From the NCBI GenBank assembly GCA_947625115.1, contig CANQND010000007.1:1-63697 (forward strand): a DNA stretch of 63,697 nt, given 5' to 3'. How positions within the stretch are numbered: position 1 is the stretch's first letter; the number at the start of each line of letters is the position of its first letter. The translations under genes and the position numbers were made by a program. This document shows, piece by piece, positions 3,548 through 5,442 of this stretch. This DNA comes from an uncultured Clostridia bacterium. GTDB lineage: Bacteria; Bacillota; Clostridia; Christensenellales; CAG-314. Below the pieces are notes generated by a model. The model ran no database searches, had not been told where the DNA came from, and saw only the letters and a list, made by a program, of their open reading frames with translations.

Positions 3548-3588
3548 AAAAAAACGGCTGTCGCAAGTAAAGGTCGCTTGCGACAGCC
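3548..3588 (-). terminator. Intrinsic terminator of the poly-Ser membrane protein gene
   Basis: A perfect 12-bp stem (GGCTGTCGCAAG with its complement, 3556-3567 and 3577-3588) and a 9-base loop. Read on the minus strand it is followed by seven U, so it ends the gene stopping at 3624. It may also stop plus-strand transcription from the YolD-like gene. Confidence 0.85.
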
Positions 3589-3623
3589 TGTTTGATTTGT
3601 AAGCCGATGTCGTTACTACGCTA

Positions 3624-4643
3624 TCAGGAAACGTCCTCGACGTTCAGTTCGGAGCTGTACGGACAATCTTTTGCCGCGTTTCTCCAAGCCCTTTCAACGT
3701 CTTTTGCCGCGTCGTTAAACTCTCTCGGGTGACGCTCGGCGTATTCGGGTTCATCTTTGCTCGTGTAGAAAACGTTGATTTTTACGTTAAGAGTAATGGT
3801 GTTTTCGTAGGTGCTTGCGTAGCAATCTATGTAAGTGTATTGGCTCGATACCGATTTAATTGCGGATTCCAATTTGCTTGCCCACGAGTAAACGGATTCC
3901 GATCCGTCGTCGTTGTAGGCTTCGCCGCTTGAAGAGGAACTTGACGAAGAAGAACTTGACGAGGGGTGTTCCCTGCGATATTCTTTCAAGCCGCCTACGA
4001 ACAAGCCGTACTTTTTTATGGAAATGATAAATCCCACAACGATTATCGCCATAAGTCCGATGTAAACGACGTAAGTTACCGTCGCGTTTTTAGCCAGCTG
4101 TATTATCAGCATAAGCAAAAAGCCGAGCAGAACGGGAAGTATCAACGAACCCAAAATCAAAATAAATTCCTTTATTCTGTTGGGTTTGAAGTTGTCTGTT
4201 TCTTCAAATCTGCCCACGATAAAGAAGTACACAAGCGGGTAAGTGATTAGCGGTGCAAAAGCCAACCCGTCGATAAAGGAATTTCCAACAGGTTTGTCCG
4301 CGCCGTTTTGCAAGGGCATAATGCACACGACAAGCAAAATAACCGCGTACAGCACCATAGAAGCAATCAACAACAAAGTTCTGAGCAACTTGGTAACCTT
4401 GAACCTGAGATTGTTGATTATGTCGCAGGCAAAGTACATAAGTATCACCGCGGGATAAACGCCTATGCAAGCCACAAAAGGCGCGCCGCCGTCGTTCATA
4501 TATTTATTTGCGGTAGTTTCGCCTATGATTGTTTCGTAGTTTGCCCCAAGAACCAACGTCAAGACGAGCATAATAACCGCAAAGCCTGCAAACAAACAGA
4601 GCCTGAACCACCATTTGCTCATTAGTTTAGCTAAATTATTCAT
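3624..4643 (-). CDS. Four- to six-helix membrane protein with poly-serine linker, unknown function
   Basis: A 339-residue protein I do not recognise. Strong hydrophobic segments lie at about residues 13-34, 57-75, 87-110, 125-145, 160-185 and 190-208, so the first 210 residues are a membrane domain. A linker then carries about 12 consecutive serines. The remaining 110 residues form a hydrophilic domain (SVYSWASKLESAIKSV..., alternating beta-like ITLNVKINVF, ending in ELNVEDVS). The serine run is encoded by two near-identical 15-bp units. AAGGAGGT lies just before the ATG. The promoter immediately upstream has ten G in its spacer, so expression is probably phase variable. It stands alone between a terminator and the repeat region. 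A surface or sensory role would fit but is inference only. Confidence 0.75.
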   Translation of the reverse strand: MNNLAKLMSKWWFRLCLFAGFAVIMLVLTLVLGANYETIIGETTANKYMNDGGAPFVACIGVYPAVILMYFACDIINNLRFKVTKLLRTLLLIASMVLYAVILLVVCIMPLQNGADKPVGNSFIDGLAFAPLITYPLVYFFIVGRFEETDNFKPNRIKEFILILGSLILPVLLGFLLMLIIQLAKNATVTYVVYIGLMAIIVVGFIISIKKYGLFVGGLKEYRREHPSSSSSSSSSSSSGEAYNDDGSESVYSWASKLESAIKSVSSQYTYIDCYASTYENTITLNVKINVFYTSKDEPEYAERHPREFNDAAKDVERAWRNAAKDCPYSSELNVEDVS

Positions 4644-4663
4644 TTTTATAACCTCCTTAGTCC

Positions 4664-4693
4664 ATTCTACCCCCCCCCCGAATTTTTTGTCAA
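4664..4693 (-). promoter_or_regulatory. Promoter with a ten-G spacer tract (predicted phase-variable)
   Basis: Read on the minus strand: TTGACA (4693-4688), an 18-bp spacer containing ten consecutive G (4679-4670), then TAGAAT (4669-4664), AAGGAGGT and the ATG at 4643. The leader is only about 14 bases. Slipped-strand change of the G tract would change the -35/-10 spacing; loss of one G would restore the optimal 17 bp. This is the classic layout of promoter-spacer phase variation known from homopolymer-controlled surface genes in other bacteria. Confidence 0.75.
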
Positions 4694-5065: not shown

Positions 5066-5075
5066 TACCCGAAAT

Positions 5076-5171
5076 AAATTCCCGCGCCACCCTCGTTGCA
5101 GATTATTTTTGGTCGAACACCCTCGCTCCCTGTGTTACAAGGTCCCCGACCGCCCACCCCTGTCCGCAGGT
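5076..5171. repeat. 95-bp direct repeat, copy 1
   Basis: Shares about 95% identity by eye with 5266-5361, offset by 190 bp. The core runs CCACCCTCGTTGCAGATTAT onward to CCCCTGTCCGCAGG. On the minus strand the inner part can fold through GGTCG..CGACC flanking arms. It is followed by a 10-bp perfect hairpin at 5196-5221. No gene is apparent. Probably a dispersed intergenic repeat or small non-autonomous element. Confidence 0.7.
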
Positions 5172-5195
5172 AATAGGTCTGCAACTGTGTCAAAG

Positions 5196-5265: not shown

Positions 5266-5361
5266 TAAATTCCCTCGCCACCCTCGTTGCAGATTATTTT
5301 TGGTCGAACACCCTCGCTCCTTGTGTTACAATGTTCCCGACCGCCCACCCCTGTCCGCAGG
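5266..5361. repeat. 95-bp direct repeat, copy 2
   Basis: Second copy of the unit at 5076-5171. The two differ at a handful of positions, for example CTCCC versus CTCCT and GGTCCCC versus TGTTCCC on the plus strand. Several changes fall in the arms of the GGTCG..TGTTCGACC minus-strand hairpin, which stays able to pair. Confidence 0.7.
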
Positions 5362-5442
5362 GAGCAGGTCGGCTATTGTGTATAAAGTTATTTAATATTT
5401 TGACACGTTTTGTCCGTAGGTAACAAGTCGGGAGCAGTAATA

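Follow-up and report, generated by a model that had tools for sequence, protein, structure and literature searches.

In Gram-negative pathogens and in treponemes, individual genes are known whose transcription is switched by length changes in a promoter spacer. The porA promoter of Neisseria meningitidis carries a poly-G tract in the spacer between -35 and -10 (van der Ende 1995, as cited in PMC7864442 and PMC5320596). For tp0126 of Treponema pallidum, coding for an OmpW homolog, a poly-G tract between -35 and -10 was reported, total spacing being optimal at 17 nt, and the genome of this organism contains several poly-G tracts of at least 8 nt, most of them variable (PMC7864442). The tpr promoters of T. 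pallidum differ, as the tract of tprL overlaps the -10 and provides no spacing switch (PMC7864442). In one gonococcal strain three genes vary in phase at the level of transcription; among them, fetA possesses a poly-C tract in the spacer (PMC5320596). For Campylobacter, Helicobacter and Bordetella, phase variation by slippage of G/C homopolymers was described (PMC8355987, PMC2823697, PMC1891110). An earlier note on the DNA studied here had stated that slippage of spacer tracts occurs in phase-variable surface genes of other bacteria.

The window, i.e. the whole stretch of DNA that was analysed (63,697 nucleotides, contig C7), is part of a host genome of 1.57 Mb with 93% completeness that belongs to an uncultured gut-type Clostridia lineage. 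The following features were assigned on its minus strand:

4688..4693, minus strand: -35 hexamer TTGACA (basis: sequence; kept in the G005 ortholog)
4680..4687, minus strand: portion of the spacer without the G tract, AAAAATTC (basis: sequence)
4670..4679, minus strand: ten-G tract, proposed slippage site (basis: sequence and run counts)
4664..4669, minus strand: -10 hexamer TAGAAT (basis: sequence; kept in the G005 ortholog)
4651..4658, minus strand: Shine-Dalgarno AAGGAGGT (basis: sequence; kept in the G005 ortholog)
3624..4643, minus strand: 339-aa open reading frame with start ATG at 4643 (basis: 339 codons)
3551..3593, minus strand: terminator-like hairpin 3' of the open reading frame, followed by T7 on the minus strand

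Read on this strand, the order is TTGACA-AAAAATTC-GGGGGGGGGG-TAGAAT-GGACT-AAGGAGGT-TATAAAA-ATG. The claim of the earlier note that 18 bp separate TTGACA and TAGAAT, ten of them Gs (4664-4693), was exact in coordinates and strand. The AAGGAGGT and the ATG of the 339-residue membrane protein, described there as following at once, are present as well, with the ATG at 4643. Among the G/C runs of the window, 157 have a length of 4 and 23 a length of 5; none has a length of 6-9 and one a length of 10. The G10 run is a strong outlier and indeed the sole long G/C homopolymer of the window, no other G/C run exceeding five. TTGAC-N7-16-GGGG-TANNNT matched once in the window, compared with 0.02 matches expected from dinucleotide shuffles. 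As far as can be judged from the sequence, the anatomy of the promoter matches the porA/fetA/tp0126 type. The homopolymer lies strictly between recognisable hexamers, its length differs between related genomes or promoter copies while the hexamers are kept, and the targets of the promoter family described below are envelope-biased, the window gene itself coding for a predicted membrane protein.

An inverton was rejected for this locus, as no inverted-repeat pair of at least 14 nt lies tightly around 4664-4693 and the arms of the bracketing pairs (I3, I4) are more than 1000 nt apart. Upstream of the window gene a 116-nt direct repeat (91%) was observed at 5075-5190 and 5266-5381. It is apparently dispersed, with related sequence at another locus (L014), where a G9 run lies outside any promoter.

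The host genome contains 15 separate runs of at least nine Gs. Nine of these, the window tract included, are spacer tracts of sigma-A-type promoters and lie between TTGAC[A/T] and TANNNT with spacings of 16-19, and a tenth host promoter was found with eight Gs. For the genus, the flanks of sites with at least eight Gs followed by TANNNT were sampled from 25 genomes; these sites were chosen for TANNNT after the tract, not for a -35. Of the 164 sampled tracts (at least eight Gs), 119 fitted a promoter spacer. When the flanks were shuffled, 2.6 fitted on average, and in the complementary C-strand control one of 164 did. The -35 was TTGACA in 101/119 fitting promoters, although this hexamer was not used for sample selection. 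At least one poly-G spacer promoter was present in 18/25 genomes of the genus. The window promoter is one of about ten poly-G spacer promoters in the host and part of a genus-wide family whose recurrence is non-random. The strict motif was detected in 16/23 sampled genomes of the genus and in 28/373 others of the order, mainly of families f15, f28 and f32. Elsewhere in the phylum it was found in 1/397 sampled genomes, and the reversed motif gave 0 matches in every genome of the genus, order and phylum scans.

The fitting promoters are narrow in tract length, with 8 (n=6), 9 (n=70), 10 (n=40) or 11 (n=3) Gs. In the 25 genus genomes the G runs preceding a -10 are bimodal: they comprise either 3-4 Gs, as chance gives, or 8-11, with almost none between. 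Total spacing ranges from 14 to 21, mostly 16-19 with peaks at 18 and 19. The earlier note had pointed out that loss of one G leads to the 17-bp optimum; this is arithmetic only, and the ON length of these bacteria may be another, the commonest spacers of the family being 18 and 19. The tract adjoins the -10 in 103/119 promoters. In the other 16/119 the -10 is displaced by 3-11 nt and the tract is closer to the -35, with total spacing still within range. Three C9/C10 tracts were found in otherwise perfect promoters with spacers of 16-20 (counted from the sequences). Thus, a homopolymer in the spacer is the common feature. Tract length varied among genomes (Kruskal-Wallis p=2e-5), with a mean of ten Gs for G006 and G014 and of nine for most others, whereas mean total spacing showed no difference (p=0.45). 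Hence, total spacing seems to be under constraint, and the values suggest a genome-wide setting of tract length that is offset by the remainder of the spacer. Some of the genomes in which pure tracts are rare or lacking (G007, G015, G010 and G023) contain interrupted tracts such as GGGGGAGGGGG at the same position, which would resist slippage.

Length polymorphism was observed among related promoters. The single ortholog of the window gene (genome G005, 73% identity) has kept TTGACA, TAGAAT and the Shine-Dalgarno sequence with a nearly identical leader, but its promoter contains G9 in a 16-bp spacer instead of G10 in 18 bp. An invariant tract length in relatives, named beforehand as refutation of a switch, was therefore not found. 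Among 27 reciprocal-best ortholog pairs, which are not independent of each other, the number of Gs was equal in 12, differed by one in 14 and by two in one. Near-identical paralogous promoters differed by one G as well (L192/L196 with 10 and 9, L022/L315 with 9 and 8, L312/L313 with 9 and 10 at 98% identity over 150 bp), and both ends of contig C39 of G006 carry the same flank with at least 11 and with 10 Gs, the one hint of different lengths side by side in a clonal population. All genomes are MAG consensus sequences, and the homopolymer lengths compared here may carry assembly error.

The most extreme length was found in G019 (L296, contig C4, position ~8,170) with TTGACA-AATCGTC-G18-TATCAT ahead of a large secreted protein. 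With a spacer of 25 this promoter is presumably silent. The C-terminal domain of MutL (MutL_C) was detected in 24/25 genus genomes, G019 being the one in which it was not found; the co-occurrence with the 18-G tract is a single coincidence and suggestive only. A general mismatch-repair defect as cause of the tracts was rejected, since the domain in 24/25 genomes leaves them unexplained by such a defect.

The targets of the family are biased to lipoproteins, secreted and other envelope proteins. A lipobox was present in 43% of the genes behind fitting tracts compared with 13% of background genes from the same stretches (p=2e-8); for an N-terminal hydrophobic segment the shares were 71% and 28% (p=1.5e-12). 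In the host genome, Pfam identified Big_2, Flg_new/InlB-type repeats and zinc ribbons among the targets. Class II aldolase-like and sugar-isomerase-like genes (named by eye) are non-envelope targets with conserved G9 promoters.

Taken together, the genus-wide set, the length polymorphism of orthologs and paralogs and the envelope bias point to contingency promoters, and the prediction of a phase-variable gene is supported. Within its sigma-A-type promoter, the G10 tract is probably a contingency element prone to slippage, by which the gene of the 339-aa membrane protein would be switched. Slipped-strand mispairing would add or remove Gs in the tract. The distance between -35 and -10 would change and with it the strength of transcription of this gene, so that each cell lineage would switch stochastically and reversibly. 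Replication slippage within the population, spacing-dependent transcription in the host and envelope diversity in the gut as adaptive use are what we infer from these data. Across the genus, the promoter set would mainly drive genes of the envelope, among them those of lipoproteins and of secreted repeat proteins. A wider reading, which we hold somewhat less firmly but still favour, is a transcriptional phasome that spans the genome. Some ten sigma-A promoters per genome with a common architecture (T-rich upstream sequence, TTGACAAWWCSNNAC, G9-10, TATAMT) would be toggled independently by poly-G slippage, and with them lipoproteins, zinc-ribbon membrane proteins and secreted proteins with repeats. 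The population would hold many envelope states, and the device would recur in other families of the order.

Some of the data count against switching. The G number was the same in 12/27 ortholog pairs, and G9 is strongly preferred. Furthermore, the commonest (N9) class shows T-rich sequence upstream and an extra spacer consensus, TTGACAAWWCSNNAC-G9-TATAMT, in which 52/58 promoters have the A and 47/58 the C just before the tract. Such conservation exceeds the need of pure spacing control, and the spacer may have a further role that depends on its sequence. The tract could also be regarded as a fixed component of the promoter, structural or regulatory, e.g. a rigid spacer or a regulator site. 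Its length would then be kept by selection, and the envelope genes behind it would form a set that is either constitutive or regulated. Besides the consensus and the pairs of equal length, this is consistent with the tight lengths (9 in 70/119, 10 in 40/119) and with C tracts being far fewer than G tracts. We consider it unlikely, as the position of the tract ranges from right after the -35 to adjoining the -10, lengths range from 8 to 18 and total spacing from 14 to 21, C tracts serve as substitutes, a single G distinguishes paralogs whose flanks are nearly the same, and the intragenic tracts of the genus vary and shift the frame. Alternatively, slippage may be real, but the tracts may be neutral products of mutation that hardly affect expression. 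The orphan character of the window protein would fit to this; the absence of further G/C runs of 6-9 in the window, the concentration of long runs between consensus hexamers ahead of envelope genes, and a mean spacer alike between genomes (p=0.45) with unlike mean tract length (p=2e-5) make it very improbable. An artefact of sequencing or assembly (two-colour poly-G, collapsed homopolymers) would be in line with the MAG origin of the nameable sources and with a few contigs starting or stopping at a tract (L243, L270, L314). It has a negligible probability and is already refuted for the presence of the tracts, which are contig-internal with conserved flanks, recur in 18/25 species genomes and have a single orientation relative to the promoter (1/164 on the other strand).

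The reading as contingency promoters can be compared with the known systems. In porA, an envelope gene, tract length sets the -35/-10 distance and transcription; the window gene is likewise preceded by a spacer poly-G, the length of which would act in this way. In contrast, porA is a single gene of a Gram-negative pathogen, and each genome of the Clostridia genus has some ten promoters of this type, whose hexamers (TTGACA and TATAMT) are close to consensus. With tp0126 the promoters share the poly-G between -35 and -10 and the occurrence of several long tracts in one genome. Organism and target are unrelated, and the effect on transcription was measured in Treponema and is predicted for the Clostridia promoters. 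In Neisseria gonorrhoeae, the homopolymer in the spacer of fetA alters promoter spacing and strength, and the three C-tract promoters of the genus are comparable; the three transcriptionally phase-variable genes listed for one gonococcal strain contrast with at least nine or ten candidates per genome here. The homopolymer tracts of Campylobacter, Helicobacter and Bordetella are similar in length to those of the Clostridia genus. In Campylobacter and Helicobacter, phase variation by homopolymers is largely a translational frameshift, while in this genus it would mostly concern promoter spacing, with a few intragenic tracts (methyltransferase, MBOAT). No published description of such promoters in this genus was found in the open-access literature. 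The novelty lies in lineage and scale, with long G tracts dominantly in this form in a gut-type Clostridia genus and about ten promoters per genome. If the promoters switch, the surface heterogeneity of uncultured gut bacteria could be counted as Gs in existing metagenome reads, without cultivation, and the counts could be tested against host, diet or phage pressure.

Intragenic tracts are an independent sign of putative slippage in the genus. Genes of DNA methyltransferases and of O-acyltransferases are among the classic cases of phase variation. An N6/N4 DNA methyltransferase contains a tract of G9 in frame in G003 and of G8 out of frame in G017, and the halves on either side of the tract both match PF01555. 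It is a candidate for a phase-variable gene. For an MBOAT O-acyltransferase the halves are in different frames around G9, making it a candidate for translational phase variation. The tracts are located as follows:

G003:C8, ~293,170, minus strand: methyltransferase tract (L184), G9
G017:C17, ~16,195, plus strand: methyltransferase tract (L216), G8
G001:C40, tract at 391, minus strand: MBOAT O-acyltransferase (L199), halves in different frames around G9

For the 339-aa window protein, six TM helices, a Ser-rich linker and a C-terminal alpha-beta domain are predicted. The loops are K/R-rich, consistent with a predicted N-in/C-in topology, and the tail is probably cytoplasmic. It is no obvious surface antigen. 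No Pfam match, no PDB sequence match and no sequence family were obtained. The structure model reached a mean pLDDT of 54, with about 80 for the C-terminal alpha-beta domain and poor values for the remainder. Foldseek with this model yielded a best E of 0.017 and none at E<=0.001. An identity as cation diffusion facilitator (CDF) was rejected with regard to the missing Pfam match and the lack of a significant fold match (Foldseek best E 0.017). The C-terminal alpha-beta fold alone may resemble the tails of MamM-type CDF proteins, a weak similarity serving as a lead only. Within the order, the G005 protein is the sole convincing homolog; four other matches are marginal with E near 1e-3.

In the contigs of GTDB r220 at least 118 stretches with the motif were found, compared with about 3 predicted from uniform composition. 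Among the matches listed are many MAGs of gut Clostridia and Bacilli, furthermore Saccharibacteria, Streptobacillus, Streptococcus, Treponema and Helicobacter. A contig of uncultured Bacilli (L119, CANRKS010000004.1) shows tandem paralogs with near-identical 5' ends and poly-G promoters of G10 and G9, i.e. the same poly-G device in an unrelated rabbit-gut lineage. Every near match of these contigs to the genomes analysed here was the same assembly. A GenBank MAG titled 'Corallococcus sp.' (JAMPAB010000032.1; L064 and L197) is identical to G001, a genome of this Clostridia genus, and its title looks wrong.
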